DNA of 32,988 nucleotides. Origin: Ignavibacteria bacterium RIFCSPLOWO2_12_FULL_56_21. GTDB taxonomy: Bacteria > Bacteroidota > Ignavibacteria > UBA10030. Location: positions 1-32,988 of the forward strand of contig MHAK01000095.1 in NCBI GenBank assembly GCA_001802945.1. Direction: 5' to 3'. Below, in pieces: positions 1-28,059 of this stretch. The position numbers and the translations under genes are program-made. The number at the start of each line of letters is the position of its first letter. The first letter of the stretch is position 1. Under the pieces are notes generated by a model that saw nothing but the letters and a program-made list of their open reading frames with translations, had not been told where the DNA came from and ran no database searches.

Positions 1-3000
1 GACGGGCATTCAAACCATTCCCCTATGGGCGACGACGGCGCGTATTACCCCCGCGGTACGGGTAGTTTTATCTATCAAGACGGCATCGTATGGGGCGGGT
101 CGATGTATCTCGATGCCGCCCGCACTGTCCCCTATTCATCTGTGTCCATAAACCAAAACGTACGTGTCGGCGGTGGAACTTACGGCGTCGGGACAAGGGC
201 GGGGAGGGTCGTCGATCCATCGATCGGCCCGTCCGGAGTTGAATACCCCGGCGCTCCGGACGTTCACATTTACCGGATTCGAAGGGATTATGCCTTCATG
301 TCGAGGGTTGAACGGGAAGCAAGCGCCGCGGCGGTCAATGAGATCGGTCCCGAGAATGTGACGCAGGCGATGATCGACGCCGATTCGGCGCGATTTGCTG
401 TGGATTGGACTAACTGGCCGGTTGCGAAGGGAGCCCCGTATATCGAGCGCAACGGCGTACCGGGATATCAACCGCCTCCTGCGTTCAGTGAAGCTTTTGG
501 GGTTGATGACCTGATCACGGGCCACTATGACGAACCCGGACTTGCCGGCGCCGACCTGAGCGCACCGGCGGATGAGGTTCTCTGGACTGTCTACAACGAC
601 CTCAATGTCGCCGAAACACAATCCTTTGAAGGCTCCGATCCCATCGGTCTCGAGATCCAGAAGACCGTTTGGGGCTATAAGCGCACGGATGCCATCGGCA
701 ATGTATGGTTCAATCGCTACAGGCTGATGAACAAAGGAGGGGTGGACAGAGATGCATCGGACGCTGTATCGTACGGGGCGTTTCATGTCGACAGCATGTA
801 TGTGTGTCAATGGTCCGACGTGGATCTCGGCAATGCAGGAGATGACCTGCTCGGATGTGACACGCTCCTGAACATCGGGTTCGCTTACAATGGCAACGTG
901 AGAGACGACGAATACGATCTATTCTCGATGCCCCCTCCATCTGCCGGCTATGACCTCTTGTCGGGTCCGCTGGTGACTGCGCCTGGCGATTCTGGGATCT
1001 TCGATCTCAAGTGGATCCACGGCAAGAAGAACCTCGGAATGACGTCTTTTGCGTATTTCTCGTCCTCCTCGCCGTACCAAGACCCTCCCTGGGTTGATTA
1101 CCTGAATGGAACCGGCAGGTGGTGGAAATTGCTCCGGGGTTTTGCTCCATTGGGCAGTTTGGTCACTGCAGATCAGCCGTACAATTACCCGGCTGGAATC
1201 GAACCATCGGTGTTTACGCTGTCCGGAGACCCAGTGGCAGGGACAGGCTGGCTCGATGGAAAGGGAGAACCGTCGTCGATCGTTCCGGGGGACCGGCGGT
1301 TGTTGGTGACGACCGGACCCTTCACAATGGTCCCTGGCGACACGCAAGAGGTCTATATTGCCGGCGTCGCCGGGATGGGTGCCGATCGCCTCTCCAGTGT
1401 CGCCGTTATGAAGGCAAATGCACGTGCCGCCCAGAATCTCTTTGATCATTTGTTCGGCGGAACGCCTGTAGTCAATCGTCTGGTCGAGATCAGGCATCCC
1501 GGGGCCGCAGTCACAGAATTGGCCATACGAGCCACCCCACCGCCAGGGATGGTCGTCCAGTTTGGCGAGATTCTGTTTCAGCCAGAAGCCGGTTCAGAAC
1601 CGACTTTTTCTACTCCGCTCTTCGACGATGGCGCTCACTTCGACAGCCTTGCGGGCGACGGCATTTGGGGTGCAGTTCAGGCAACGTCAAACAGACAATA
1701 TCCCTACCGGGCGAAATTAACGCTTCAAACTTCAGCCGGCCCGATTGTCCTTGAGGACTTTCTCACGGGTCTGACTTTGCGTCCTCGTCCCGTACTTTCG
1801 GACTGGTCGATCGTCTGGGAAGATGGCAAACAGGATGGCAAGCTCAACCCAAATGAAAATGTCATAGTGTCATTCAGCGTGCACAACGTCGATCCCGTCA
1901 ATGCGATCAACCAACTGACCGTTCTCAACGAAGGTGTGTCGCCGTTCGAATCGAACCGGTCGGCGACGGCCCTCGCACCCATTTCTCCCGGGGCAACGGC
2001 CTCCGGCGAAGTTTTCACCCTGTCTTTCCACACAGCTTTGTCGGAATCCAGCGCAAGTCTGCTGTACACTGTGGCGTATGACGGTGCCGCATATTCCTCG
2101 AATGCCCGGTTTCCGGTGGAACCGTGGACACCGGATGCATCCTGGAGAGATACCCTGGAAGTCCTGAAATCGGTCGGCGTGACAATGAACGTCATACCTG
2201 TCATTGCGGACCCCGCCGCAATGACGGGTCATGATTACCTCGTCAGTTTTGTGACCCTCAATGACACGACCGGCGAAGTGGGATGGTCCCTGCAGGACAT
2301 GAACACCTCAGCCTGGCTGTTGACGGCGCAGAGGCTATCGACCAACATTGACGGCTGGCCCCACCCCGTGGTCGACGGTGTACAGTACATCGTCCGGAAC
2401 GTCCCTACCGATTTTGTTGACTTCCAGCAGTTGTCCGATGTAGCAGGTCCGCTCAACCCACCGCACTTTGCTTCCTTTGGCTTCATCGGTGTGCCGACAA
2501 CGCTTGCCCCCCAGGATCGACCGACGCCCGACGCCGGGGGCGGACAATGGGGCATCATCACCGGCAATACCGGGTCGACCATGAGCTATGACTATTTTGT
2601 GCTCAGAGTGACCAATGGCGGTGCCCGGTGGCCGATCCTGCTAAGGAATGACTGGGAGATTCGTTTCACTGCCGGGCCGAACTACGGACTCGAACCCGAT
2701 GCGTTCACAGGTATGGGCAACAATTTCATGAGAGTTCCGTTCGAGTTGTGGTATGTCGGCCCCGATCCCAATGATGCGTCCGATGATTATCGATTGTTCC
2801 CGTATATGATTGGCGACGGCGACAGCACGTTCGATATCACCAGATTCGATAACAACGTGTCCGGTGGGGACAATGATCCTGAGACCGACTGGTTCTATTG
2901 GGTGATCCCGACAGACAAAACACCCGGTCAAGCGGGGTACAACGCTATAGTCTCGAGCATACAAGCAAACATCCCTGGTCACGCGTACATGGATCCTGCG

Positions 3001-3492
3001 ATCATGAACGGAGATGCCATGCGGCGAATGGTGCTCGTGAATTACAACGGGGGATCGGTTGCGTCTCCGACGTTTCCGGAAAATCTGACCAGCAAGATGC
3101 CGGCGACGGGTTCAGTGTTCCGCATCGTCACCGGAAAGCCCAACGTTGCGGGAGACCGCGTCGTCGTTCGCGCAATTGCGACGACTGGCGTCGGTGGGAA
3201 CGGAATCGTTCCAGACCGGATTGACCTGGCCCAGAATTATCCGAATCCCTTCAATCCCGTGACCTCCATCAGGTATCAGATCCCACAAAAAGCGACGGTG
3301 AAACTTGAGGTCTTCGATGTTCTCGGCCGAAAGGTCCAAACGCTTGTCAACAAGGAGCACGTGCCCGGGTCGTATGTCGTCGAATGGGATGGGAAGACGT
3401 CGCACGGGATCTCTGTGTCGACCGGCGTGTATTTCTACAGTCTGACAGTCGGAGATCGACTCATGACGAAAAAAATGGTCCTCCTCAAATAG
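1..3492 (+). CDS. Large T9SS-secreted protein, 5' end outside window
   Basis: The frame is open from base 1 and no signal peptide follows the first in-window ATG (25), so the true start lies upstream; 1163 codons are visible. A choice-of-anchor-X-like segment with an FDDGAHFDSLAGDGIWG motif lies at about 1480-1790. It is followed by a beta-sandwich-like stretch with a DGKLNPNENV motif. The last ~90 residues (from about 3210) form a Por/T9SS sorting domain: AQNYPNPFNPVTSIRYQ, then a VFDVLGRKV block, a VYFYSL strand and a terminal KKMVLLK. In this family the domain directs export across the outer membrane and is removed or used for surface attachment. The function of the remainder is not recognised. 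An intrinsic terminator lies 24 bases after the stop. Confidence 0.85.
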   Translation, partial: DGHSNHSPMGDDGAYYPRGTGSFIYQDGIVWGGSMYLDAARTVPYSSVSINQNVRVGGGTYGVGTRAGRVVDPSIGPSGVEYPGAPDVHIYRIRRDYAFMSRVEREASAAAVNEIGPENVTQAMIDADSARFAVDWTNWPVAKGAPYIERNGVPGYQPPPAFSEAFGVDDLITGHYDEPGLAGADLSAPADEVLWTVYNDLNVAETQSFEGSDPIGLEIQKTVWGYKRTDAIGNVWFNRYRLMNKGGVDRDASDAVSYGAFHVDSMYVCQWSDVDLGNAGDDLLGCDTLLNIGFAYNGNVRDDEYDLFSMPPPSAGYDLLSGPLVTAPGDSGIFDLKWIHGKKNLGMTSFAYFSSSSPYQDPPWVDYLNGTGRWWKLLRGFAPLGSLVTADQPYNYPAGIEPSVFTLSGDPVAGTGWLDGKGEPSSIVPGDRRLLVTTGPFTMVPGDTQEVYIAGVAGMGADRLSSVAVMKANARAAQNLFDHLFGGTPVVNRLVEIRHPGAAVTELAIRATPPPGMVVQFGEILFQPEAGSEPTFSTPLFDDGAHFDSLAGDGIWGAVQATSNRQYPYRAKLTLQTSAGPIVLEDFLTGLTLRPRPVLSDWSIVWEDGKQDGKLNPNENVIVSFSVHNVDPVNAINQLTVLNEGVSPFESNRSATALAPISPGATASGEVFTLSFHTALSESSASLLYTVAYDGAAYSSNARFPVEPWTPDASWRDTLEVLKSVGVTMNVIPVIADPAAMTGHDYLVSFVTLNDTTGEVGWSLQDMNTSAWLLTAQRLSTNIDGWPHPVVDGVQYIVRNVPTDFVDFQQLSDVAGPLNPPHFASFGFIGVPTTLAPQDRPTPDAGGGQWGIITGNTGSTMSYDYFVLRVTNGGARWPILLRNDWEIRFTAGPNYGLEPDAFTGMGNNFMRVPFELWYVGPDPNDASDDYRLFPYMIGDGDSTFDITRFDNNVSGGDNDPETDWFYWVIPTDKTPGQAGYNAIVSSIQANIPGHAYMDPAIMNGDAMRRMVLVNYNGGSVASPTFPENLTSKMPATGSVFRIVTGKPNVAGDRVVVRAIATTGVGGNGIVPDRIDLAQNYPNPFNPVTSIRYQIPQKATVKLEVFDVLGRKVQTLVNKEHVPGSYVVEWDGKTSHGISVSTGVYFYSLTVGDRLMTKKMVLLK

Positions 3493-14174: not shown

Positions 14175-14604
14175 GTTCGGGTCCTGTCTAATCTTAGTCA
14201 CGTGCTGAAATCTAGTCAAAGTACACATCCGATGTGGGGGCACGTGACATGGAGGCATTATCAATAATGACTCTGGTTTTCATAACGATGGTTACGCATT
14301 GTCGTTGGTGTACCGCTCGATTGTTGACATTCTCGGCACACGCCGTTATACTGAGACACATGCTGATGAGGTTTGGAGAGGCATCTGTGTTCTCCAGATC
14401 TGAGCGCGCGGGAAGAGCTGGTTTCGCAACTTTCGCTCTTTGCTGTTCAACTTCCCTCACGCACCCACCTCTGCCCTGAAACCTTTCCAGTGGTCTGATA
14501 GAGCAGCGCAGGCCGATTTACCATTGGGCGCGCTATTCCGGCGGTCTTCGTTTTTCAATTCCAATATTCTAAGACCCACCATCTGGTTGACGAAGGTATC
14601 ATGT
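14175..14604. other. Intergenic region and long leader of the composite kinase gene
   Basis: The 430 bases between the GT9 fragment and the kinase gene contain one excellent plus-strand promoter (14324-14352). The predicted leader of about 245 bases holds an unsupported 39-codon frame from the ATG at 14360. No RNA family or repeat was recognised. Confidence 0.4.
14324..14352 (+). promoter_or_regulatory. Consensus sigma-70 promoter for the composite kinase gene
   Basis: TTGACA (14324-14329), a 17-base spacer and TATACT (14347-14352) give a near-perfect promoter. Transcription would begin near 14359, leaving about 245 bases of untranslated leader before the ATG at 14605. It is the strongest promoter match seen in the window. 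Confidence 0.75.
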
Positions 14605-17600
14605 ATGATTGGCCAAATCGTCTCCCACTACAGAATTCTTGAACACCTTGGCGGCGGCGGTATGGGTGTCGTTTATAAAGCAGAAGACACTCGGCTTAAG
14701 CGCACCGTTGCCCTCAAGTTTCTTCCACCCGAACTCACCCGTGACCGCGAGGCCAAAGAACGCCTCATCCACGAAGCACAAGCGGCTTCCGCGCTGCAGC
14801 ACAACAACATTTGTGCGATTCATGATATCGAAGAAACTGCCGATGGATGCTTGTTCATCGTCATGGATTACTACGAAGGAAGTACGCTGCGAGAGGAAAT
14901 TGCCAAAGGGCAATTGCCAATCGATACTTGCTTGAACTTTGCCCTCCAAATCGCCGAGGGTCTCCAAAAAGCCCATGAGATCGGCATCATCCACCGCGAC
15001 ATTAAGCCTGCGAATGTGATCGTCACAAAAGACGGCGTTGCGAAAATCGTGGATTTCGGCCTGGCAAAGCTCGCCGGCCAGGTCCATACGACAAGAGCCG
15101 GCTCAACGGTTGGGACTGCAGCGTATATTTCGCCGGAGCAGTCGCGCGGGGAAGAGGTTGACCACCGCACAGATATTTGGGCGCTGGGTGTCGTGCTGTA
15201 CGAGATGTTGACCTCAAAACTTCCTTTCTCGGCGGCGTATGAAGCCGCCATGCTGTATCTGATCCTTCATGAAAACCCACAGTCCATCAAAGAGCTGCGA
15301 CAGGAAGTGCCGGCCAAACTGGAAGCACTTGTGGAAAGATGCCTCAGGAAAGAACGAGATGAGCGCTTTCAAGAGGTCGGAGAGTTTCTTGCCGAAGCCA
15401 ATGCTCTGGTAAGAGCGTTGGAGCCGGGCGCACAAGGGACACATGTACAACCCGCTGAACAGAAAAGATTCGAGAGCGAACGCCGGCCCGTGACGATTCT
15501 GTTTGCCAGCATACTCCCGGCGAATGGAAATTCTATCGATGCTGATCCGGAATCTCTGACGGCCGGACTCGATGAATGTTCCGACGGTCTCACTTCCATA
15601 GTCCAGAAATACGGGGGAATGAAAGACCGCATTCTCGGTGACAGAATCATGGCTGTTTTTGGCGCTCCCGTTGCCCACGAGAACGATCCCGAGCGCGCTG
15701 TTCGGTGTGGACTCGAAATGATGTCCTATGTCAAGAGAATTAACTCCCTCGGTATTTCAGGAGTCACGACAGCACTTCAACTCAGGATTGGAATACACTC
15801 AGGAGTTGTTGTTGCGGGCTCCGTGGGTTCGGAAAAGGGAACGGAATATTCGGTTGTTGGCGATGCAATCAACGTCACCGCCGGCATCACCGATCTCGTG
15901 CCGGCGGGGGAGATCTATCTGAGTGCCGAAACGCTGAAGCGTGTTGCCGATATCGTTGAGATTGGACAAGCGCGCGCCATTTCCATCAAGGGGAAGGAGC
16001 AGGAGATCTCCGTGTATCCGCTGCAATCCTTGAGGTCGGGCCTGGAGCCGGGAAAGCGCGTAGCGGGGGGCGGCGCTTTTGTCGGACGAATGGACGAGCT
16101 GCGGATGTTTGAAGAGTCACTTGACCTCGTGCGGAGAAATGGTGAAGTGCGGATTCTGGTTCACGGAGAGGCGGGGGTTGGAAAGTCTCGGCTGAAGAGT
16201 GAGGTCATCAAACGGGCCGAAGGGCGAAAGATGTCAATTTGCGAGGGCAAATGTTCGAGTTTGGAGGTCAACACTCCATATTATCTCTGGAATACCTTGC
16301 TCAAGAGTCTGCTTCGCGTCGACCTCGAAATGCCCGAGTCAGAAGTCCGCACGCGACTTCATGAAATGGTCAAGATGCTCTCTCTCGAACCGGACGAGCC
16401 GTATTTGGCCGCGCTGCTGTCCCTCCATTATGAGGACATACTTTTGGAAGAGGACGAGAAGCGTAAGCGCAACATTTTCGAGGCCATGGGGCGGCTTCTC
16501 AAGAAATATGTTGGAGTCAAGCCCACAGTCGTCTTTCTGGAAGACCTTCACTGGATTGATCGATTCTCGCAAAGCCTTCTTGAGTTCATTCTGGGCGGGA
16601 ATGCCGTTGGTCCGGCGCTTATCGTTTGCCTCTACCGCCCCGGTTACGCCGGTGCGAGCCGGATCAGGGGGACGTCTCACGAGCTTGATCTCAGCCGCCT
16701 TTCGGGCGTAGAAGCGCGCGAATTGATGCGTCTGCGATGTGGCGTGGATTCTGTGCCAGAATCGCTCGCTCATCTCATAGAACAAAGGTCGGAAGGTAAT
16801 CCTTTCTTCATCGAAGAGATCATCAAGACATTGTTGGGAAAGAAGATCATCAAGGTCGGCAAGAACACGCTACACATCATGTCGGAGGACCTTGAATCGG
16901 GAGTTCCGGAGACTCTGCAGGGGGTCATTCTCGCACGGATCGACCAACTGGAAGAACGGATCCGGGAGGTACTGCTGGATGCGTCAGTGATCGGCAGAGA
17001 GTTTTCAAGGCCGGTGCTCGAGCAGATTGTTCAGAAGAAAACCGACGTGAGGGGGGAGCTGAAGAAATTGGAGTCGTTGGAGCTTGTCTTCGAGAAAGAA
17101 GAGGCGCGCGAACTTGAGTATCTGTTCAAGCACTATCTCATACAGGAAGTTGCCTACAATACGTTGCTGCAGAAGAAACGCAAACGACTGCATGGTCTGA
17201 TCGCTTCGGCAATAGAGAAGTTGTATGCAGATCGGTTGAAGGAGTTTTATGAGGTCTTAGCCTTCCATTACGAAAAGGCCGAGGAATGGGAAAAAGCAGC
17301 CGACTATTTGAGCCGTGCCGGCAGAAAGATGCGCGAGACTTTTACAAGGGAAGAATCAGAGGATTTTACCGAGCGGAAGGAAGCAGCCCTGCAGCATCTT
17401 TTCGCCTCAGAGACTGAGAAAGCCACCTGGTTCTATAAGTTGTTAAGTATCACGACCGTTGGATTAATGACCCTCATGTCGATCTTCCTTTTGTCCGGCG
17501 GCATCTATTTCTTTTTGTGGTCGATGGGGATACGATCAGAAACCGTGGATATCGTATTCTCGGGAGCGAAGAACGACTCCGTGGGACTCGGAATCATGTT

Positions 17601-18705
17601 GATCTTGATTGGGTCATGGTTCCTCTTTATCACGCTCGTCGTGGTCAAGACTCAATCGGCGCTCGGCAACGTAACGCTCTATGAAGTTCTTGATGAAGGG
17701 ATTTCATTGGTGTTCAAAGGAGGTGAAAGAATCATCGTTCCGTTTTCGGAAATACAGTCTGTATTCTTCCTTCCCATCCTTCGCGGAAAGAAGAACCTGT
17801 GGTCACTCGTAAAGAATGCACAAGAGTACACCCTCTATGCGATTTCACATCGAATGTTCCCTGGCTACATTCGGTGGCTGGGCAACAGTGCGCCCCTGTT
17901 TTCTGCACCGTCAAAAGAGGGATTCATTGGGATACGACGAAAACGTGGGATTTCGACGTTTGGGGCACAGATGCAGATTGGCGCACGGCAGAAGCAGATC
18001 TGGGAACGGGTAAGAAACATAGGTCTTACCCCGGCTCATACCGCCCAGTTTTACGATCACATGGTACTCGCCTTCACAAAATGGCAAACACGATACTGTC
18101 TTCGCTGTTCCGCTCCATTGGAACACGCCGTTCAGTGCCCTTCATGCGGATATCGATGTGGGACTGGTACTGTCCGAACAGATCCTTCTACGCCGGAAGG
18201 GACCGTGATTCGTTCGGTCGAGAATTCAGTTCAGTTTCTGCTCGAATTCTTTTTTAATCCGTATGTGCTCTTTGGTGTGTGGATGCTCTGCGTGTTTCTC
18301 TTCATTTCGTCGACAAAATCGGGCTTGGAGCTGGCATGGTTGTTCTTTCTCTTGATTCCGCTGTTCGGGGTTCCCTCGTTCACATTGTTGCATAAGAAGA
18401 GGTCGCACAGAAATTATGCGATGGCGATTCACAAAACGTCGTTGAGCTATGTTGGTGAAATGCCTGAACTTTTGGGGTCGACGATTCCGTTTCAAGATAT
18501 TCTCTCGATACGACGATATGCAAACCTCTTTCAGAGAATGCTTGGCCTGGGAAACATTGAAATCGAAACGAGAAACAGGGTTCCGTTGATGGACAGGACC
18601 CCTCTTTTTCACTTTGTCATCCCGAACATACGCGAAAGCAAAGAAGTGGAGAAGCTCCTCAGGGAGAGGTGCGACTGTTTGAACGTACCCAAGTCGCAAG
18701 ATTAG
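14605..18705 (+). CDS. Ser/Thr kinase - degenerate class III cyclase - AAA-type ATPase - membrane/PH-like protein
   Basis: This 1366-residue signalling protein starts at the ATG with GAAGG eight bases upstream. Residues 10-270 form a Hanks-type kinase with GGGGMGVVYKAE, K38, HRD D132 and DFG D150, all intact. Residues 293-476 are a class III cyclase homology domain: the second metal Asp (D346 in LGDRIMAVFG) and N423 are kept, but S302 replaces the first metal Asp and G427 replaces the transition-state Arg. Residues ~490-930 are a P-loop ATPase with Walker A GEAGVGKS (521-528), Walker B VVFLED (642-647), then a helical region. Paired hydrophobic segments (~951-973, 994-1014), a zinc-ribbon-like CxxC...CxxC (C1165, C1168, C1178, C1181), two more membrane segments (~1220-1262) and a bacterial-PH-like end follow. 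The N-terminal half would be cytosolic; targets are unknown. Confidence 0.9.
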   Translation: MIGQIVSHYRILEHLGGGGMGVVYKAEDTRLKRTVALKFLPPELTRDREAKERLIHEAQAASALQHNNICAIHDIEETADGCLFIVMDYYEGSTLREEIAKGQLPIDTCLNFALQIAEGLQKAHEIGIIHRDIKPANVIVTKDGVAKIVDFGLAKLAGQVHTTRAGSTVGTAAYISPEQSRGEEVDHRTDIWALGVVLYEMLTSKLPFSAAYEAAMLYLILHENPQSIKELRQEVPAKLEALVERCLRKERDERFQEVGEFLAEANALVRALEPGAQGTHVQPAEQKRFESERRPVTILFASILPANGNSIDADPESLTAGLDECSDGLTSIVQKYGGMKDRILGDRIMAVFGAPVAHENDPERAVRCGLEMMSYVKRINSLGISGVTTALQLRIGIHSGVVVAGSVGSEKGTEYSVVGDAINVTAGITDLVPAGEIYLSAETLKRVADIVEIGQARAISIKGKEQEISVYPLQSLRSGLEPGKRVAGGGAFVGRMDELRMFEESLDLVRRNGEVRILVHGEAGVGKSRLKSEVIKRAEGRKMSICEGKCSSLEVNTPYYLWNTLLKSLLRVDLEMPESEVRTRLHEMVKMLSLEPDEPYLAALLSLHYEDILLEEDEKRKRNIFEAMGRLLKKYVGVKPTVVFLEDLHWIDRFSQSLLEFILGGNAVGPALIVCLYRPGYAGASRIRGTSHELDLSRLSGVEARELMRLRCGVDSVPESLAHLIEQRSEGNPFFIEEIIKTLLGKKIIKVGKNTLHIMSEDLESGVPETLQGVILARIDQLEERIREVLLDASVIGREFSRPVLEQIVQKKTDVRGELKKLESLELVFEKEEARELEYLFKHYLIQEVAYNTLLQKKRKRLHGLIASAIEKLYADRLKEFYEVLAFHYEKAEEWEKAADYLSRAGRKMRETFTREESEDFTERKEAALQHLFASETEKATWFYKLLSITTVGLMTLMSIFLLSGGIYFFLWSMGIRSETVDIVFSGAKNDSVGLGIMLILIGSWFLFITLVVVKTQSALGNVTLYEVLDEGISLVFKGGERIIVPFSEIQSVFFLPILRGKKNLWSLVKNAQEYTLYAISHRMFPGYIRWLGNSAPLFSAPSKEGFIGIRRKRGISTFGAQMQIGARQKQIWERVRNIGLTPAHTAQFYDHMVLAFTKWQTRYCLRCSAPLEHAVQCPSCGYRCGTGTVRTDPSTPEGTVIRSVENSVQFLLEFFFNPYVLFGVWMLCVFLFISSTKSGLELAWLFFLLIPLFGVPSFTLLHKKRSHRNYAMAIHKTSLSYVGEMPELLGSTIPFQDILSIRRYANLFQRMLGLGNIEIETRNRVPLMDRTPLFHFVIPNIRESKEVEKLLRERCDCLNVPKSQD

Positions 18706-18773: not shown

Positions 18774-19388
18774 ATGGTGCGAAACCGCCCGCTTCTCCTC
18801 CTCCTTTCGCTCACACTGTGCACCAACATCCTTGCACAGCCATCCCGCCTCATCCGTGTTCCGCAAGATCGTCGCACCATTCAATCCGCTGTCGATGCCG
18901 CGCACGTTGGGGACACGATACTCGTCGACCATGGTGTGTACTTCGAGAACATTCGAATACACAAGAACATCGTCCTGGCAAGCCGTTTCATTATCGACAG
19001 AGATACGACTCATGTGTCACGCACCGTGATCGATGGCAGCAAGGCGAAAGATGAACGCATGGCCTCTACTGTTCTCATCACTGGTCCGACGGACACTGCT
19101 TGTGCGCTGATCGGCTTTACGATCAGAGGCGGGTCCGGATCATATGGCTAGTTCCCGAATGATCCCACCCCTTCTCATTGGATCGTGGGCGGAGGTGTTC
19201 TTGTCCGACATGCCGGAGCGACGATCGCGAACAACAGAGGGACGCAAAATATACTTTCGCCGCGGTCGTGCGAGCACTCCGGCCAGACACGGACATACAA
19301 ACAATCGCTTCATGATCATTCGAAAATGACAACGGTACATTATCCCTCCACCCCTCGCGAATCAAGCCCTTTTTGGGCTTTTTCATAG
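18774..19388 (+). pseudogene. Beta-helix secreted protein gene interrupted by in-frame TAG
   Basis: A signal peptide (MVRNRPLLLLLSLTLCTNILAQ) leads into a pectinesterase/PbH1-like beta-helix start: IRVPQDRRTIQSAVDAAHVGDTILVDHG, VYFENIRI and SRTVIDGS, ending GFTIRGGSGSYG at the TAG (19149-19151). The same frame then continues with WIVGGGVLVRHAGATIANNR, again a beta-helix repeat pattern, and ends at a second TAG (19386-19388). This continuity argues for a nonsense mutation in a longer gene, with later decay. As it stands only 125 residues would be made. The start lies 69 bases after the composite kinase gene and has a poor ribosome site. Confidence 0.7.
19364..19383 (+). terminator. Intrinsic terminator after the beta-helix pseudogene
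   Basis: AAGCCC (19364-19369), a five-T loop and GGGCTT (19375-19380) form a short stem continuing into T residues. It separates the pseudogene from the giant T9SS gene; a TTG reading-frame extension of that gene lies inside this hairpin and is therefore not its start. Confidence 0.7.
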
Positions 19389-19546
19389 GTATTATGCACA
19401 TCACACGCTTGCATTCTGTTCTTCTCAAAGGTGGAAAATGTGTCCGGAACTCCCTACGTTACGGCGTCTCAGAATTAACAGTGGCCCAGGGGGGCGCGGC
19501 CCACACCCGTTCTGAACCGCTTCGTACCTACTCGATGGAGGTTGGT

Positions 19547-22500
19547 ATGCGCGTTCGTTCCCGTCTGCAGTTCCCTCGCCTCATCCTCGCCTCGATGGCG
19601 ATCTTTCTTTCCGAATCCTCCGATCCGCTTCTTGCCCAACCGGCAAATGTCCCCCTCTTCTCACCGATGTCGGTCACGACACACTCTATGGTCTTGACCT
19701 GGACGACATTCTCGGATTCGGTCACATTCAAGGAGTATCGTCTTTATAAAAGTTCGACTCCATCAGTGACGACGTCGAGCACGCTTCTTGCCACTATTAC
19801 CGACCGAACGGTCGCGTCGGTCACCGACTCGCTTCTCCGCGCTTCTTCTCTCCACTATTATAAAGTGTTCGTTGTCGACACGCTGAACGTATTGAGCAGC
19901 GGCAGCAACGAAGTTTTCGCCACGACGAAGGCGAACCTGTACCCATTCTTCGACAACGCGGAGGCGGACGCCTCATTGCGATTTGACATCGCCGCACCGT
20001 GGGCCCGTGACACTGCGTTTCCGTACGCGGGAGTCTACGCATGGTCTGAATCGCCGTCCGGAAACTATGCGACAACGGTCGATGCATCACTGCTTCTGCA
20101 CGTCGACCTTTCGACTGCGACGATGCCCGTTCTGACCTTCCAAACACGGTACGGATTGGAGGCGAACGGAGACTACGGGAGAGTGGAAGTGAGTATCGGC
20201 GGCGATTGGACGATCGTCGCTTATGTTACCGGAAGTCAATCCGCATGGAAACGCATCAGCGCGGACCTGACGCAATGGGCGGGAAATGCAGACGTGCGAG
20301 TGCGTTTCCGTCTTCTTACCAATGGTAACGCCACCGTAAGCAACGGCTGGCATATCGACGATATTTCTGTTGCCGAGACGCCTTCTCCGGCGCTCGGGTA
20401 TCCATTGATCGACCTCTTCGAGGACACCACCAGCCGCGCAAAATGGCACTGGGGTCAGTGGGACATTCAGTCGGGAGGGCATAATAGTAACGGACAGATA
20501 CATGACTCTCCTGTCGGACCATATCTGCAATCGGGGGTGATCAACACGTACGTCGACAACCCGAACAGTTTTACGGGGATGGTCACTTCGGGTGTCATCG
20601 ACCTCTCGGGCGCAGTCGACCCCATCCTTACGTTCTGGCAACGCTACGACTTCTTCAACTGGGAAGACGGGTGCTGGTATCAGTACGACTACGGTCGGAT
20701 CTACATCTCCCCAAACTACGGATTGCCGGGTTCATGGACCCAGATCTATGCCGTGGGGGACAACCAGAATACGACAGCACTGGCGACATGGCAATACGTC
20801 GAGATCGACCTCAGCTCATACGTGGGGAGTTCGACGGTTCGAATTATGTTCGTTGTTGATGATATGCCGGATACCCGGTCCGGATGTGGAGATCAATCCG
20901 GGGCCGGCGATGGATGGTATCTCGATGACATCCGCATAGATAATCGTCCGACCTCCGTGACACTCCAGCCTCCGACAAACGTTTCGATGCATGGAGCCGA
21001 CCTGTCGTGGAGCATGAACGCAGACGCAGACTTCCTGCAGTTTGAGTTGTATCGATCCACCTCATCGGGTGTCAGTCGTACGGACACACGGGTTGCCACT
21101 TTTGTGAATCAGGCGACGACGTCGTATCGGGACGATTACCAGATACTGCAGCCGAACATCTACTACTATAGAATGTATGTCGTTGATTCACTCGACCGGG
21201 TCAGCTATGGCAGCAACGTTGTGAGCGCTCCATACACTGTCCCTACGGTTTCGTTCCCGTTCTCTGACAACGTCGATTCGGCGTCCAGTGCAACAAAGTG
21301 GGCGTGGGGTGTTCCGTGGGCAAGGAGTACGGACCAGTCACACAGCGGGTCCTACAGCTGGACAGATAGTCCGGGCTCAAGCTATGGGCCCAACACGAAT
21401 TCCTCACTTTCGACGTTCATAAATCTCAGCCTGAGTTCCGCCCCGGTCCTCTCATTCTGGCATCGTTACGTGTTCGAGACCAACGCAGACTACGGCTATG
21501 TCGAGGTCAGCACGGACGGAGGCACGACGTGGTCGCGAGCCCTCACAGTCACGGGAGTGGACACAAATTGGACGGAACAGCGCATCGACCTCTCCGCGCA
21601 CGTGGGAGGGACGATCGGGCTGCGATTCCGGGTCCAGACGAATGCGACTTCACATTTGGACGGCTGGTTTGTCGACGATATCGTGATCGACGATGGAAGT
21701 CGAGTTGTTGGATATCCGTTCACGGAGAATTTCGAGTCCGGGTTTGGGAAGTGGTTCCTCGACAGTCCCTGGGGGTTGACATCCGTCAATCCGCATGGCG
21801 GAAGTGTCTCGATGGCAGAAAGTCCCTCAGGGATCTACGCACCGACGGTCGACGCCGGACTTCATCTGCACATCAACCTTTCAACCTCGGTCATGCCGTT
21901 GCTGAAGTTTTGGACCCGATACGCTACGGAGATCAACGGCGACTACGGTCGTGTGGAGGTCCGTGCGTCAGGAGCCTGGACTGTTGCAGCGTATGTCTCA
22001 GGAAGTAATACCGCATGGCAGGAAGTCAAGGTGGACTTGACGCAATGGGCAGGAAACAGCGATGTGCATGTACGCTTCAGGTTCCTCACGAACGGCAATG
22101 AGACCATCGGCGATGGCTGGTATATAGACGACGTTTCGATCGCAGAAACACCCACACCGTCACTCGCTTATCCATTGATTGAGACCTTTGACGACGAGAC
22201 CAGCGCATCCCGATGGCATGGAGGGCAATGGTCGGTCTTGACGAACGGAAGGTCATCGCCGGGGCTGATCCATGATTCGCCGACAGGCCCGTATCTGCAG
22301 TCGGGTGCGATAAACACGTATGTCGACGACCCCAATAGCTTCTCGGCGCTTGTTTCCGCCGGGACCTTTGATCTCACAAACGCCCGCAACCCCGTTCTGA
22401 CGTTCTATCAGAAGCTCGATTTCTTCAATTGGGAGGATGGGTGCTGGTATCAATACGATATGGGGCGGGTCTATGTCTCATCGAACTATGGCCAACCGGG

Positions 22501-25500
22501 TTCCTGGAACCAGGTCTATTCGGTGGGAGACAATCAGAACACGAACGCTCTTTCGGCATGGCAACGGGTAGAAGTGAATCTATCCTCATATGCCGGACTT
22601 TCGAACGTGCGGGTCATGTTCGTCGTGGACGACATGCCGGACACACGTAGCGGATGCGGAGATCAATCCGGTGCGGGCGATGGATGGTATCTCGACGATA
22701 TTCGACTGGAAGATCGGGTCGCCGACGTCGCTCTTGCCGGCCCAACGAACGTGACCCTTCATGGGGCCTCGCTCGCATGGACACGCAATCAGGACATCAA
22801 TTTTCAGCACTATAAGGTATATCGGCACACAAGCGCGGCGGTCGATACGAACTCGATCCTGGTAGCGGTGATAACGAACAGGGCGGATACATCGCTGCAC
22901 GATGTGTATCAGATCCTTCAACCCGGGACCTATTACTACCGTGTCTACACGGTCGATACGCTTGGCACATACAGTTTCGGCAGCAACGTGGTGAACGCGG
23001 TGTATCAGGTTCCAACGATCGTTTTTCCGTTCACGGAAAATGTCGACTCCGCCGCCGCGGAGATACGGTGGGCGTGGAGCGCACCGTGGGCGCGCACCAC
23101 TGCCCGGGCACATTCCGGCCTTTACAGCTGGACGGACAGTCCGGGAGCCAGTTCACCCCCGAACGCTAACACGTCGTTGACGACGTTCGTGAATCTCACA
23201 TTGAGCGGAACGCCGGTGCTCACGTTCTGGCATGCCTATTCCATGGAGGCCGGCGCTGATTTCGGCTACGTCGAGGTGAGTGACAACGACGGGGCGACAT
23301 GGACCCGGATCCACTCGGTCTCGGGTGTTGATACGAGTTGGAACGTTGAGCGTATCGATCTCACACCATGGACGGGACGGACGATCGGACTACGCTTCCG
23401 ATTGACGACAAACGGGTCGATCGAATCCGATGGATGGTATATCGACGACATCGCGATCCTCAACGGTGACCGCATCGTTGCTTATCCCTACGTCGATGAC
23501 ATTGAGAGCGGCCCGAGGTCGATGTTCACAGACTCCCCATGGGGGATCGCGTCTGTGAACGCTCACAGCGGGTCCAATTATTGGTCGAATAGTCCCGCCG
23601 GCAATTACAATCCAAGCGCGGACAATTCATTGTCGTTCCACGTTGACCTTTCTCAGGCGCAGATGCCGCTGATGACATTCTGGACGCGGTATGGCACGCA
23701 GGTCAACACCGATTACTGCCGCGTTGAGGTCCGCGTAGCGTCGAACTGGATCGTGGCAGCCTACTTCAGCGGAAGCCAATCCGACTGGAAGCAGATTCGG
23801 GTCGACCTTACACAATGGGCCAAGAACAGCAATGTGGAGATCCGGTTCCGCTTCACGTCTAATTCCGACGCGACGGTCAGCGATGGATGGGACATCGACG
23901 ACATTCATATCGCCGAAACACCGACACCCGTGCTCGCTTACCCGTTTACGGAATCATTCGACGATTCTTCGATGATCGACCGATTTCACATGGGGAGCTG
24001 GGGACGGCAGACGGGAGGACGCAGTTCACCGTTCTCGATCCACGACTCGCCCACGGGTCCGTATCTGCAGTCCGGCAGTCAGGACTCGTATGGTGACGAC
24101 CCGAACAGCTTTACTTTCATCATCACCTCCGGGGTCATCGACCTGACCGACGCGGTCAACCCCGCGCTGACCTTCTATCACAAGTACGACTTCTACAATT
24201 GGGAGGATGGATGTTGGTATCAATATGACTACGGACGGGTGTATATCTCGACAAACTACGGGTTGCCCGGGACGTGGACGGAGATCTATACGATCGGAGA
24301 CAATCAGAACACGAACGCACTCGGCTCATGGCAGAAAGTTGAGCTGAACCTCGCTTCCTATATCGGGCATGCCACTGTACGCCTCATGTTCGTCATGGAC
24401 GACATGCGGGATACCCGAACGGGGTGCGGCGATCAGTCGGGTGCGGGTGACGGTTGGTATTTAGACGATATCCGTCTGGGTGAGAACCTTGTGGCGGCTT
24501 CAGTCGTCGATTCCGCCTATATCGTCGGTCCTGCGACGACGAGCACAACGCCGGGCACACCAACAGTCCGCTTGTTCGGAAAGGTCTATGAAGGAGGCGT
24601 TACGAACGCCGCGGGGCAAGGTGCCGGTATCATGGCCGAACTCGGCTACGGGCCTCCGGGGTCGGACCCGGCCGACTCCACGTGGGTGTGGGTCAGCGCA
24701 ACATACGGATCAGATGACGGACTCTTCGACAGATACTACGGTACGTTGAGCGTTCCCGAGATCGGTTCGTATGACTATGCCTTCCGATTCACGCTAAACG
24801 GCGGCGCCCGTTGGGTCTACGCCGACCTGAACGGAAATGCCGAAGGAACCAACAGCGCGAACGGCTATGACCCCGGGATGGCGGGAAACCTCGTCGTCTC
24901 CAGACGCCCTCAGGCTTTGATCGGAGTCGACTCGCTCCATCAGACGATGCCTGTCGAGATGCGTCAGAACTGGAGCTTCGTTCTGGCGAATGCGGGTGTC
25001 AACGCTGAGGGACCGCTATCCTTCTCGTTCATCGAAACGCTGGACACAATGACGACGGTCGATGTCGGTTGGTTCTCCGTCAATCCAGCACGGGGCACGT
25101 TGCAGCCGGGTGAACGTGTGGTCGTGACGGCTACCTTTGACGCCACGGGACTTGTCCCCGATACCTCATACAATGCGCTTCTCCTCGTGCGCACGAACGA
25201 CCCTGACAGGATGGAGACCATCCTGGATGTCCGGTTGCAGACGCTTCAGGTCGGTGTCACGGTTCTCGCGGGTGCCGTTGTAGACCTCTCCGGAGGACCG
25301 CTCGGGTCCCTCGCGCGGGTAGAGGTTATTGAAGGGGGTTCGATCACGGCGGCGGCAATTTCCGATGAAGGTGGAAACTTCGCCTTCTTCGGTCTGTCGG
25401 CGGGCGCCTACAGGCTGCGGGTGCACGCCCCGGGTTTCTATCCCTACACATTGAGGTCGGTGGAAGTCCCGGGAGACCGGATCATCCTCAGATTGTCCCG

Positions 25501-27031
25501 CACCCCCGTCATCGCGCTCACCGATCAGAGCGCAAACTTCTGGGGATCGCTTTCGATGTTCGACGGCGCTCCGCTCAGGCCGGGTGACGTCGTAACGGTC
25601 GCGGACCCCGATAACGTTGTATGCGGGGTTTTCACGGTCGATTCATCGGGCGCCTACGGTTTCATGCATGTGTATGGCGACGACGGCTCAACGTCCGAGA
25701 TTGACGAAGGTGCGTCGCCCGGTGATACACTGCGGTTCTTCGTGAACGAGTCGCCCGCCCCATCCTCCGGACCCGATGCACCGGTCTGGATGGGAAATCT
25801 CACGACCTCGCATGTCGAGTTGAATGCCTCAAAACTCGATATCCTGCCGTTGAACGTCAATTGGAACCTCTCGTCGTTCACAGCCATACCACCGAATGAT
25901 TCGATCCATGTCGTTCTGCAATCGATCGGCGGTACGTTCACGCTCGTGTCGTCCTTCGACCAGTCCCTCGGCGGTGCCCGAACATACGACCCGGCTCTTC
26001 TTCCCTTCAGCGACCTGTGGCACGTCGACCCGATGCACGGATACTGGATCAGGATGAGCTCGGCGGATACACTGCAGGTGGATGGCGAACGGCTCTACAC
26101 CGACGCGCTGTTGCCGCTCGAGCAGGGATGGAATCTGACCGGATATCTGCCGGAGCATTCATTAGAGGTGGCGAAAGCGCTCGGCTCGATCGCCGGAAAG
26201 TATTCCGTTGTGAGCGGCTTCGATGACGGCGCACAAACCTTCGTGCCCGGCAGCCCCCTGAGCGACCTGACAAACATGAAGAATGGATTCGGGTACTGGG
26301 TAAAGACGACCGAACCCGCCTTGCTTCAATATTCCAGGAGCACACCGCTGGGAGTTCCTTCCAGAGTGTCCGACCAATCATCACAAAAGTCGGTCGTGGC
26401 ATCCGTTCTGATGTCCCCCTGGTGGACGGATTATTACGGAACGATCAACGAGGGCGGTGTTCCACTGCCGGTCGGCGCGGTCATGCAGGCCTTCGACCCG
26501 GACGGCGTCAAGTGCGGTGAGGTCGTCATCCGTCAAACGGGTCTGTATGGGTTCCTCCATGTTTATGGGGACGATCCCGCGACGAGTGGGCTCGATGAAG
26601 GGGCGGAGGCAGGGGATGACGTATCGTTCGTCGTGAACGGAAAGATCGTGGCGAGGACCACGCTCCCGGACCACCGCTGGAAAGGAGACCGGTCTTCCAT
26701 CTCGTTGTCGATCGATGTGTCTGCCGGAAACGGAACGACGGCTGCATTGCCGACGGTGTTCGAACTTTCTCAGAACTATCCGAATCCGTTCAATCCATCG
26801 ACTCTCATCCGCTATCAGGTTCCAGAGGAAGAGAGAGTGCACATCACGATCCACGACCTTCTCGGAAGAGAGATCGTCACACTGGTCAATGATATGACAA
26901 AGCCCGGAGAGTATGTTGCGCGCTGGAATGCTCAGGATGCGACCGGTGATATCGTGCCCGGAGGGACATACTTCTGCCGAATGAAGGCCGGGACGTTCAC
27001 ACGAACGATGAAACTCCTGCTGCTCAAATAA
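19547..27031 (+). CDS. Giant modular T9SS-secreted protein with tandem FnIII/MAM-like super-repeats
   Basis: The 2494-residue protein starts at the ATG with GGAGG five bases upstream, followed by a signal-peptide-like segment ending LLAQP. Residues 35-1645 hold three super-repeats of a fibronectin-III-like domain plus MAM/jelly-roll-like modules, the latter ending in GWYIDDI- or GWYLDDIR-type strands. Residues ~1649-1785 are a GYGPPGSDP...WVYADL domain, ~1785-1902 a HYDIN/ASPM-like Ig fold and ~1903-1985 a carboxypeptidase-regulatory-like domain. HVYGDD domains lie at ~1995-2085 and ~2285-2385, with a two-lobed W(N)L..GY repeat between. The T9SS sorting domain is 2402-2494 (SQNYPNPFNPSTLIRYQ ... 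KLLLLK). No catalytic motif was recognised; a surface adhesin or matrix protein is the best guess. Another T9SS gene follows after 26 bases. Confidence 0.9.
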   Translation: MRVRSRLQFPRLILASMAIFLSESSDPLLAQPANVPLFSPMSVTTHSMVLTWTTFSDSVTFKEYRLYKSSTPSVTTSSTLLATITDRTVASVTDSLLRASSLHYYKVFVVDTLNVLSSGSNEVFATTKANLYPFFDNAEADASLRFDIAAPWARDTAFPYAGVYAWSESPSGNYATTVDASLLLHVDLSTATMPVLTFQTRYGLEANGDYGRVEVSIGGDWTIVAYVTGSQSAWKRISADLTQWAGNADVRVRFRLLTNGNATVSNGWHIDDISVAETPSPALGYPLIDLFEDTTSRAKWHWGQWDIQSGGHNSNGQIHDSPVGPYLQSGVINTYVDNPNSFTGMVTSGVIDLSGAVDPILTFWQRYDFFNWEDGCWYQYDYGRIYISPNYGLPGSWTQIYAVGDNQNTTALATWQYVEIDLSSYVGSSTVRIMFVVDDMPDTRSGCGDQSGAGDGWYLDDIRIDNRPTSVTLQPPTNVSMHGADLSWSMNADADFLQFELYRSTSSGVSRTDTRVATFVNQATTSYRDDYQILQPNIYYYRMYVVDSLDRVSYGSNVVSAPYTVPTVSFPFSDNVDSASSATKWAWGVPWARSTDQSHSGSYSWTDSPGSSYGPNTNSSLSTFINLSLSSAPVLSFWHRYVFETNADYGYVEVSTDGGTTWSRALTVTGVDTNWTEQRIDLSAHVGGTIGLRFRVQTNATSHLDGWFVDDIVIDDGSRVVGYPFTENFESGFGKWFLDSPWGLTSVNPHGGSVSMAESPSGIYAPTVDAGLHLHINLSTSVMPLLKFWTRYATEINGDYGRVEVRASGAWTVAAYVSGSNTAWQEVKVDLTQWAGNSDVHVRFRFLTNGNETIGDGWYIDDVSIAETPTPSLAYPLIETFDDETSASRWHGGQWSVLTNGRSSPGLIHDSPTGPYLQSGAINTYVDDPNSFSALVSAGTFDLTNARNPVLTFYQKLDFFNWEDGCWYQYDMGRVYVSSNYGQPGSWNQVYSVGDNQNTNALSAWQRVEVNLSSYAGLSNVRVMFVVDDMPDTRSGCGDQSGAGDGWYLDDIRLEDRVADVALAGPTNVTLHGASLAWTRNQDINFQHYKVYRHTSAAVDTNSILVAVITNRADTSLHDVYQILQPGTYYYRVYTVDTLGTYSFGSNVVNAVYQVPTIVFPFTENVDSAAAEIRWAWSAPWARTTARAHSGLYSWTDSPGASSPPNANTSLTTFVNLTLSGTPVLTFWHAYSMEAGADFGYVEVSDNDGATWTRIHSVSGVDTSWNVERIDLTPWTGRTIGLRFRLTTNGSIESDGWYIDDIAILNGDRIVAYPYVDDIESGPRSMFTDSPWGIASVNAHSGSNYWSNSPAGNYNPSADNSLSFHVDLSQAQMPLMTFWTRYGTQVNTDYCRVEVRVASNWIVAAYFSGSQSDWKQIRVDLTQWAKNSNVEIRFRFTSNSDATVSDGWDIDDIHIAETPTPVLAYPFTESFDDSSMIDRFHMGSWGRQTGGRSSPFSIHDSPTGPYLQSGSQDSYGDDPNSFTFIITSGVIDLTDAVNPALTFYHKYDFYNWEDGCWYQYDYGRVYISTNYGLPGTWTEIYTIGDNQNTNALGSWQKVELNLASYIGHATVRLMFVMDDMRDTRTGCGDQSGAGDGWYLDDIRLGENLVAASVVDSAYIVGPATTSTTPGTPTVRLFGKVYEGGVTNAAGQGAGIMAELGYGPPGSDPADSTWVWVSATYGSDDGLFDRYYGTLSVPEIGSYDYAFRFTLNGGARWVYADLNGNAEGTNSANGYDPGMAGNLVVSRRPQALIGVDSLHQTMPVEMRQNWSFVLANAGVNAEGPLSFSFIETLDTMTTVDVGWFSVNPARGTLQPGERVVVTATFDATGLVPDTSYNALLLVRTNDPDRMETILDVRLQTLQVGVTVLAGAVVDLSGGPLGSLARVEVIEGGSITAAAISDEGGNFAFFGLSAGAYRLRVHAPGFYPYTLRSVEVPGDRIILRLSRTPVIALTDQSANFWGSLSMFDGAPLRPGDVVTVADPDNVVCGVFTVDSSGAYGFMHVYGDDGSTSEIDEGASPGDTLRFFVNESPAPSSGPDAPVWMGNLTTSHVELNASKLDILPLNVNWNLSSFTAIPPNDSIHVVLQSIGGTFTLVSSFDQSLGGARTYDPALLPFSDLWHVDPMHGYWIRMSSADTLQVDGERLYTDALLPLEQGWNLTGYLPEHSLEVAKALGSIAGKYSVVSGFDDGAQTFVPGSPLSDLTNMKNGFGYWVKTTEPALLQYSRSTPLGVPSRVSDQSSQKSVVASVLMSPWWTDYYGTINEGGVPLPVGAVMQAFDPDGVKCGEVVIRQTGLYGFLHVYGDDPATSGLDEGAEAGDDVSFVVNGKIVARTTLPDHRWKGDRSSISLSIDVSAGNGTTAALPTVFELSQNYPNPFNPSTLIRYQVPEEERVHITIHDLLGREIVTLVNDMTKPGEYVARWNAQDATGDIVPGGTYFCRMKAGTFTRTMKLLLLK
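19650..20945 (+). repeat. Super-repeat copy 1 (short form)
   Basis: Order is FnIII-like (19650-19930), a jelly-roll module ending IDDISVAETPSP (19944-20390), then the cysteine-containing module with WEDGCWYQYD and GCGDQSGAGDGWYLDDIR (20395-20945). This copy lacks the extra SYSWTDSPG module of the next two copies. Confidence 0.8.
20946..22720 (+). repeat. Super-repeat copy 2
   Basis: FnIII-like (20946-21240), a SYSWTDSPG module (21248-21705), an IAETPTP module (21714-22150) and a WEDGCWYQYD module (22165-22720) recur in this order in copy 3. The WEDGCWYQYD motifs of copies 1, 2 and 3 are each about 1770 bases apart. Confidence 0.85.
22721..24485 (+). repeat. Super-repeat copy 3
   Basis: It has the same four-module order as copy 2: FnIII-like (22730-23010), SYSWTDSPG module (23017-23465), IAETPTP module (23484-23920) and WEDGCWYQYD module (23935-24485). 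Amino-acid blocks such as GCGDQSGAGDGWYLDDIR are identical across copies while many codons differ, so the duplication is not recent. Confidence 0.85.
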
Positions 27032-27057: not shown

Positions 27058-28059
27058 ATGAAAATACTTTGGCTCGTACTTTTGGCAGGTGTTTTGAACG
27101 TTCACGCGACGGCGCAGGTCCAGCCGACGAATGTGTGGATGGATTGCTTTAGTCAGGCTTCGACCGTCAATGGCCAGGCGGTGCCCATCGGCGCACTCGT
27201 GCAGGCGTACGACCCGCAGGGAGTGCTTTGCGGCGAGTATCGTGTGCAGACGGCGGGTTGGTACGGGTATCTCCACGTGTATGGAGATGATGCCACGACC
27301 ACGGGGATCGACGAGGGGGCCGTCAACGGCGACACGATCACGTTTCGCATCGAGGGACTTGCCGCGCTCGCTTCCGCAAATGCCGTGTGGACGAGCGGAA
27401 ACCCTGGCGCGTTGCTCGAGGTACATCTGCATGCGAATTTGTCAGCCCCGCCACCCCCCCAGCTGATAAGCCCAGCCGACGGTGCCACGGAGACGCCTCG
27501 AGCGACGGTGTTGCGCTGGGCGCTTGCACCGGAACCATATCCTTCGCTCGGTGTCCTGATGCACCGTGTACAGGTCGCGACCGATTCTGCGTTTGGATCA
27601 ATGCTCGCAGACTCGTTGATAGGCACAGCAGATTCGCTTCACGTCTCCGGTCTGGCGATAGGGACGTTGTATCACTGGAGAGTGCGATACGAACACGATC
27701 TCGCGGGGCCAAGCGTGTATTCAGCGGTCCGTTGGTTTGCAACCGTGACGACGGGTATAGAGGACGGATCGCCGACACCTGTGGGGTTCGAGTTAAGGGA
27801 AAACTATCCCAATCCATTCAATCCCGAAACGAAAATCGAATACAGGATGAAGGAAGGAGGATGGGTGAAGGTGTCAGTGTTTGATGTTCTGGGGCGTGAA
27901 GTCGCCGTGCTGGTGGATGAAGAACAACCGGCTGGCGACTACAGAACGACGTGGAATGCATCAACGATGCCTTCGGGTGTCTACCTTTGTCGTGTGACGT
28001 CGTTGGGTATCAGCGGTCTTCGCTTTGAAGCGGCAATGAGGATGGTGTTGATGCGCTGA
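27058..28059 (+). CDS. Small T9SS-secreted protein with HVYGDD and FnIII-like domains
   Basis: The 333-residue protein has a signal peptide (MKILWLVLLAGVLNVHATAQ). A domain at about 22-125 carries VPIGALVQAYDPQGVLCGE and YGYLHVYGDD and closely matches two domains of the giant protein just upstream. An FnIII-like domain (about 131-236; PPQLISPADGATE, YHWRVRY) follows, then a T9SS sorting domain (about 240-333; RENYPNPFNPETKIEY, VSVFDVLGREV). AAGGAG at 27045-27050 is seven bases before the ATG. It lies 26 bases after the giant gene without an intervening terminator, so the two are probably co-transcribed and both exported by the T9SS. The role may be structural or accessory to the giant protein. 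Confidence 0.88.
   Translation: MKILWLVLLAGVLNVHATAQVQPTNVWMDCFSQASTVNGQAVPIGALVQAYDPQGVLCGEYRVQTAGWYGYLHVYGDDATTTGIDEGAVNGDTITFRIEGLAALASANAVWTSGNPGALLEVHLHANLSAPPPPQLISPADGATETPRATVLRWALAPEPYPSLGVLMHRVQVATDSAFGSMLADSLIGTADSLHVSGLAIGTLYHWRVRYEHDLAGPSVYSAVRWFATVTTGIEDGSPTPVGFELRENYPNPFNPETKIEYRMKEGGWVKVSVFDVLGREVAVLVDEEQPAGDYRTTWNASTMPSGVYLCRVTSLGISGLRFEAAMRMVLMR

Follow-up and report, generated by a model that had tools for sequence, protein, structure and literature searches.

A kinase-ATPase fusion protein of an Ignavibacteria bacterium with a probably inactive class III cyclase domain, and the loss of cyclase residues among its kinase-fused relatives

Membrane receptor guanylyl cyclases of the NPR-A type carry a kinase fold, a cyclase fold and a membrane part on a single polypeptide, their kinase-homology domain being dead and their cyclase active. 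Here we describe a protein that is the mirror image of this arrangement, encoded on contig MHAK01000095.1 of Ignavibacteria bacterium RIFCSPLOWO2_12_FULL_56_21 (assembly GCA_001802945.1; positions 1 to 32,988 were analysed and are referred to as the window), in which a Ser/Thr protein kinase with complete motifs is followed by a class III cyclase homology domain (CHD) that has lost catalytic residues, and by a STAND-type ATPase. PDB 9bcv (GC-A) was among both the structure and the sequence matches of this CHD. The same kinase-CHD-ATPase order is already known as NCBIfam TIGR03903 (TOMM system kinase/cyclase fusion protein), the NCBIfam profile that the window protein matches best (379.2 bits, residues 33-932); the cut-off of that family is 705.75, which places the window protein outside it, and the match ends at profile position 924 of 1267, whereas the C-terminus of the window protein has hydrophobic and zinc-ribbon-like parts. 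No TOMM gene was found among the 17 of 75 window open reading frames (ORFs) that were scanned with Pfam; one of the TIGR03903 members that we read adjoins TOMM precursor genes.

A second kind of relative comprises kinase-less proteins with zinc ribbon, cyclase and AAA domains from the same taxonomic order as the host (L072 and L030, for example), whose CHD, ATPase and post-ATPase region are homologous to those of the window protein at about 40-47% identity in long matches, and which also have a hydrophobic C-terminus, of low similarity. These proteins differ from the window protein in that they lack the kinase, begin with a zinc ribbon in the cases with a readable start, and have all five catalytic residues. 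Further from the window protein, Trypanosoma brucei RDK1 and its relatives are membrane protein kinases with a cyclase-like domain (PMC8519429); they are eukaryotic, the cyclase region of RDK1 precedes the kinase, and neither an ATPase nor catalytic residues are discussed in the accessible part of that report. Inactive cyclic nucleotide monophosphate (cNMP) cyclase domains in multidomain bacterial vWA-MoxR conflict systems have already been published (PMC7159879), where they are joined to vWA components, with no kinase-CHD-STAND chain described in the accessible part of the article. A search by titles and abstract openings, with subscription journals mostly outside its coverage, found no literature on dead cyclases in kinase-CHD-STAND fusions; within the same coverage, it found neither a loss linked to the kinase in several lineages nor a disagreement of kinase and body trees, as reported below.

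With moderate confidence, our sequence comparisons favor the reading that the window protein is a switch whose output has been exchanged, in which the ATPase would drive the kinase and the dead cyclase would be kept as a dimerising relay. The architecture of the protein is as follows:

14605..18705, + strand: whole gene (1366 amino acids): kinase, pseudo-cyclase, AAA/STAND ATPase, hydrophobic segments, zinc-ribbon-like stretch, hydrophobic segments and weak PH-like (pleckstrin homology-like) match.
14629..15369, + strand: Ser/Thr protein kinase domain, residues 9-255 (Pfam PF00069, Pkinase, E 3.4e-51; VALK, HRD, DFG and SPEQ motifs).
15472..16038, + strand: degenerate class III cyclase domain (CHD), residues 290-478 (Pfam PF00211; phmmer E 5.6e-30 to 2w01; Foldseek TMt 0.81 to 2w01, from a low-confidence model).
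16078..16608, + strand: AAA_16/STAND-type ATPase, residues 492-668 (Pfam PF13191, E 2e-19; Walker A 521-528, Walker B 642-650).
16702..17409, + strand: post-ATPase region, residues 700-935, where conservation is highest (59-70% identity in comparisons with four homologues).
17440..17646, + strand: hydrophobic segments, residues 946-976 and 996-1014 (hydropathy scan; helices there too in a low-confidence AlphaFold2 model).
18097..18147, + strand: zinc-ribbon-like CxxC ... CxxC, residues 1165-1181 (Pfam DZR, E 0.53 only, below the cut-off).
18250..18387, + strand: hydrophobic segments, residues 1216-1234 and 1243-1261 (hydropathy scan).
18481..18585, + strand: bPH_2-like segment, residues 1293-1327 (Pfam PF03703, 21.2 bits, just below the cut-off of 22).

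The gene contains no internal stop. Its frame is open from a TTG at 14440 onwards, but position 14605 is the likely start, as related kinases share a similar 'MIG..SHY' beginning. Kinase and ATPase had been called intact in the first-pass annotation of this DNA, which holds at the level of motifs and no further: the kinase has the complete Hanks-type Ser/Thr set (VALK, HRDIKP, DFG and SPEQ), and the ATPase has GEAGVGKS as Walker A and VVFLED (642-647) within Walker B. The ATPase is presumably of the STAND class. The Guanylate_cyc profile PF00211 matched residues 294-471 with 72 bits against a cut-off of 21.9. The model of the CHD and ATPase (mean pLDDT 55) was used for the fold match only, and that of the C-terminus (mean pLDDT 50) was too poor for a fold to be named. 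The protein is probably a membrane-anchored signalling switch.

Within the CHD, the alignments place five residues at catalytic positions:

15508..15510, + strand: S302, at the position of the first metal Asp.
15628..15630, + strand: R342, at the position of the base-selecting Lys.
15640..15642, + strand: D346, the second metal Asp, retained.
15871..15873, + strand: N423, the transition-state Asn, retained.
15883..15885, + strand: G427, at the position of the transition-state Arg.

The first-pass annotation had named S302, D346, N423 and G427, all with exact numbering and identity, and the alignment to class III cyclases that it called for confirms the substituted positions. In the phmmer alignment to 2w01, which carries the title guanylyl cyclase Cya2 in the structure search, S302 aligns with the metal Asp and G427 with the Arg, no gap lying near either position, and a hidden Markov model built from kinase-less relatives, without the fused proteins, places both residues in the same way. 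Beyond that annotation lie R342, a rewritten β1-α1 metal/triphosphate loop (FASILPAN in the window protein vs FADVTGFT in a relative), and the hydrophobic, zinc-ribbon-like and PH-like parts of the C-terminus. R342 carries little weight by itself, since the kinase-less protein L079, with the other positions in place, has Arg too. Of the features expected of an active class III cyclase, the fold is present, whereas the pair of metal Asps and the pair of Asn and Arg are each incomplete. Since each half of the composite site has lost a residue, the sequence gives good support to what had been proposed from the DNA at first, that the window CHD is probably not an active cyclase; its paralogue and a homologue in another genome lack the same two residues, and kinase-less relatives keep them. 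The most improbable of the alternatives, in our judgement, is that the domain still acts as a cyclase by an unusual chemistry. Some non-canonical residues are compatible with activity in class III enzymes, and five kinase-less plasmid relatives have His in place of Asn, but here the metal Asp, the transition-state Arg and the base-selecting Lys have all changed, as has the substrate loop.

Rescue by a partner would be another way to retain activity. In class III pairs, one half supplies the two metal Asps and the other half supplies Asn and Arg, and the window protein might be one half of a heterodimeric cyclase, with a second CHD protein of the same cell filling in the missing residues. Candidate partners exist, as the host genome has ten PF00211 matches, two of them in the family of the window protein, seven complete at the five positions and one (contig C5) unread, and proteins with tandem CHDs, some of them degenerate, occur in other genomes (L098-L101). 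Yet the window CHD lacks one residue of each half-site and could fully serve as neither half, and we regard heterodimeric rescue as very unlikely. The host draft genome (3.36 Mb, 138 contigs) also has six cNMP-binding matches; with the seven complete CHDs, these make it probable that other proteins of the cell work with cyclic nucleotides.

Relatives of the window protein came from several searches. In a scan of the contigs of named genomes, eight loci appeared in drafts of Ignavibacteriales/Ignavibacteria, Bacteroidetes, Marinimicrobia and Calditrichaeota; L060 and L061 among these loci match chiefly through the kinase. A query running from the CHD to the transmembrane part matched in 16 of 98 genomes of the order, and under a stricter limit in 14 of 391 genomes drawn from the class, all 14 of them belonging to the same order. 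Three members of the family carry the kinase: the window protein, its paralogue L010 on another contig of the same genome (51% identical over residues 3-1195, in a frame of 1159 amino acids that stops before the zinc-ribbon-like part), and L029 in genome G003, which is the same gene as L059. The first metal Asp is lost in all three, being Ser in the window protein and Thr and Gly in the others, and Arg is replaced by Gly in each; the G003 protein lacks the second metal Asp as well. In the kinase-less members, a zinc ribbon is present where the start can be read, and Asp, Lys, Asp, Asn and Arg are retained in every row that spans the site, with the exception of the distant L079 (31% identical), which has the Arg for Lys mentioned above.

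That the CHD is vestigial, a linker heading for loss, would fit the disappearance of several catalytic residues, the deletion in the paralogue, whose metal/triphosphate loop is 5 residues shorter, and the kinase-ATPase proteins with no detectable CHD (L087 and L102). Nevertheless, the CHD is full-length in all three kinase-fused members of the family, and between the two paralogues it is 61% identical, about as conserved as the ATPase (63%; kinase, 48%), which argues against free drift; we therefore hold a vestigial domain to be rather improbable.

Comparison of fused and kinase-less relatives extended these observations. Eleven kinase-CHD-ATPase fusions were found in the search for the same domain order that had been suggested at the outset, and the first metal Asp is absent in all ten that were read, the position being occupied by Ser (window), Gly, Thr, Lys, Arg, Ser, Ser, Ser, Cys and Cys; the eleventh (H32) is 99.7% identical to L090 and stands outside the residue counts. 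The transition-state Arg is absent in six of the ten. Beyond the family, 395 genomes of the phylum searched with TIGR03903 yielded one fusion (L085), and plasmid records yielded seven, six of which were read (L090-L093, L104 and L105). L105 is broken in its record, with kinase and CHD in one frame and ATPase in another, and without it the count for the first Asp is 9/9; the columns of L091, L093, L104 and L105 depend on CHD scores of 32-55 bits. Among the fusions beyond the family, L085, L090, L092 and L104 were scored against TIGR03903, and the cut-off was passed by L090 (760 bits), L092 (1317) and L104 (1680), with L085 below it; the first metal Asp is absent in all three that passed.

Conversely, among 26 kinase-less CHD-ATPase rows, the first Asp is present in 23/23 that are readable at that column. 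For all 34 kinase-less single-CHD rows, the figures are 31/31 readable for Asp and 34/34 for Arg; the 23/23 count omits eight single-CHD rows unrelated through the ATPase (the seven of the host genome and one of L114). L068, L075 and L058, short or masked at the Asp column, were excluded as unreadable, and L078, which is kinase-less and has Asp, stands outside the final residue table, as L087 and L102 stand outside the counts. The 11 kinase-less plasmid comparators were hand-picked among the best 30 of 575 records; five of them are those with His for Asn, so that kinase-less proteins are not always canonical. Furthermore, an intact kinase-less query returned 31 CHD rows at 30 loci (34 places listed, some of them repeats), comprising 27 kinase-less rows with Asp, one kinase-less row without it (one domain of a tandem pair) and three kinase-fused rows without it; these three were already known, and no kinase-fused protein with an intact CHD emerged from this search. 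A phage search gave partial matches only, covering at most 29% of the query among the best 10 of 19. The kinase-less tandem proteins L098-L101, from four other genomes of the phylum, have two CHDs before the ATPase with different catalytic residues missing in each; their eight domains, several of them degenerate, were also excluded from the counts. Tandem CHDs with differing losses recall mammalian soluble cyclase.

These residues bear on a further proposal, that the pseudo-cyclase is a nucleotide sensor to which ATP, GTP or a cNMP still binds, without being turned over, and which signals this to the kinase. The first-pass annotation had suggested that the domain may bind a nucleotide or dimerise, acting as a sensor; of these two, possible dimerisation is the reading that we favor. 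The retained cyclase fold, D346 and N423 speak for it, as does the second metal Asp, which stands on its column in 8 of the 10 fusions (possibly off by one column in L085). Conversely, the loop is rewritten and, in the paralogue, shortened, and at the position of the base-selecting Lys both paralogues have Arg while the plasmid fusions that were read, six in number, have Gly (Arg, Lys or Gly across the nine fusions other than the window protein). With the loop and this Lys altered, a structural role is more likely than the sensing of nucleotides, and we consider this proposal, weakened by these findings, to be unlikely.

In order to check for shared ancestry of the ten fusions, a tree was built from the ATPase part that follows the CHD. 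A single clade of fusions across families was rejected (approximately unbiased test, AU, p 1.3e-6), and well-supported branches force at least three changes, in a tree that has several long branches that meet; the window protein is separated from the plasmid group. The bodies of the three fused family members form one clade with support 96/98, or 71/77 without the CHD, and in a wider ATPase-only tree the G003 protein joins kinase-less ones (80/100), apart from the window pair, so that these trees differ on a shared origin of the three bodies. Regarding the kinases, that of the window protein is 65% identical to the unfused kinase L055 of another genome and 49% identical to that of the paralogue. 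A single clade for the kinase domains of the three members was rejected (AU p 7e-5), as was one for those of the two paralogues (AU p 0.02); the long branch of the kinase of L010 makes the latter, two-row test the weaker one. This conflict between kinase tree and body indicates either more than one gain of the kinase or its replacement by paralogues; together with the rejected clade of fusions, it points to repeated gain or swapping of kinases. The host genome (G000) contains at least twelve more kinases resembling that of the window protein, on contigs C17, C23, C34, C59, C61 and C91, several of them on one contig.

Several observations weigh against an output-exchanged switch, or against its generality. 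The Arg is still there in four of the ten fusions (L091, L092, L093 and L105), and the retained D346 and N423 are compatible with weak nucleotide binding. The six plasmid fusions that were read form one group, three of them very close kin, which reduces the ten fusions to about three independent cases. Most fusions were found by degenerate queries, which perhaps favors degenerate relatives, and for phyla other than that of the host, sampling was limited to plasmid records and a single scan of genome contigs. In L087 and L102, the kinase is followed by an ATPase match without a detectable CHD, so that the CHD is dispensable for coupling somewhere. Finally, no conserved gene neighbor pointing to a substrate was found; genes for tetratricopeptide repeat (TPR)-like lipoproteins downstream of L010 and L059 were considered as a conserved neighbor and discarded, as they have no phmmer match to each other or to the window.

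Elsewhere in the window, a short frame after the kinase gene (18774-19151, +; stop 19149-19151) has a secreted-protein-like start by eye and no Pfam match, and is perhaps a decayed gene. It is followed by a giant ORF of 2552 amino acids (19373-27031, +) with MAM-like, reelin-subrepeat-like and CarboxypepD_reg matches. Type IX secretion sorting domains are matched by ORFs 25-3492 and 27058-28059, the match of 25-3492 being below the family cut-off.

Taking these results together, the output-exchanged switch could have arisen as follows. The older architecture, still present in the kinase-less relatives, was likely a zinc ribbon, a complete class III cyclase, a STAND ATPase and a hydrophobic C-terminus, in which the ATPase switch presumably governs the pairing of cyclase domains and hence cNMP synthesis. 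In the lineage of the window protein, a Ser/Thr kinase would have come to stand at the N-terminus, and the cyclase chemistry would have been lost, with cNMP output presumably ceasing and the fold being retained as a relay or dimerisation platform. ATP-dependent STAND switching, which we infer to respond to a signal at the membrane, would then bring two kinase domains together, allowing trans-autophosphorylation and the phosphorylation of substrates. More tentatively, and with somewhat less than even confidence, we propose that this output swap is convergent: each time that a STAND-controlled cyclase gains a kinase, it would lose its cyclase chemistry while the fold is kept as a coupling element, and in the family of the window protein one paralogous kinase would have taken the place of another on a conserved body of dead cyclase and ATPase, which might thus constitute a reusable platform for kinase activation. 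With complete cyclases and their dead counterparts available on ATPase bodies of one kind, the control of a STAND ATPase over its output domain becomes open to a direct test, and, on present evidence, kinase-fused proteins bearing names such as 'kinase/cyclase fusion' should not be automatically counted as cNMP producers.

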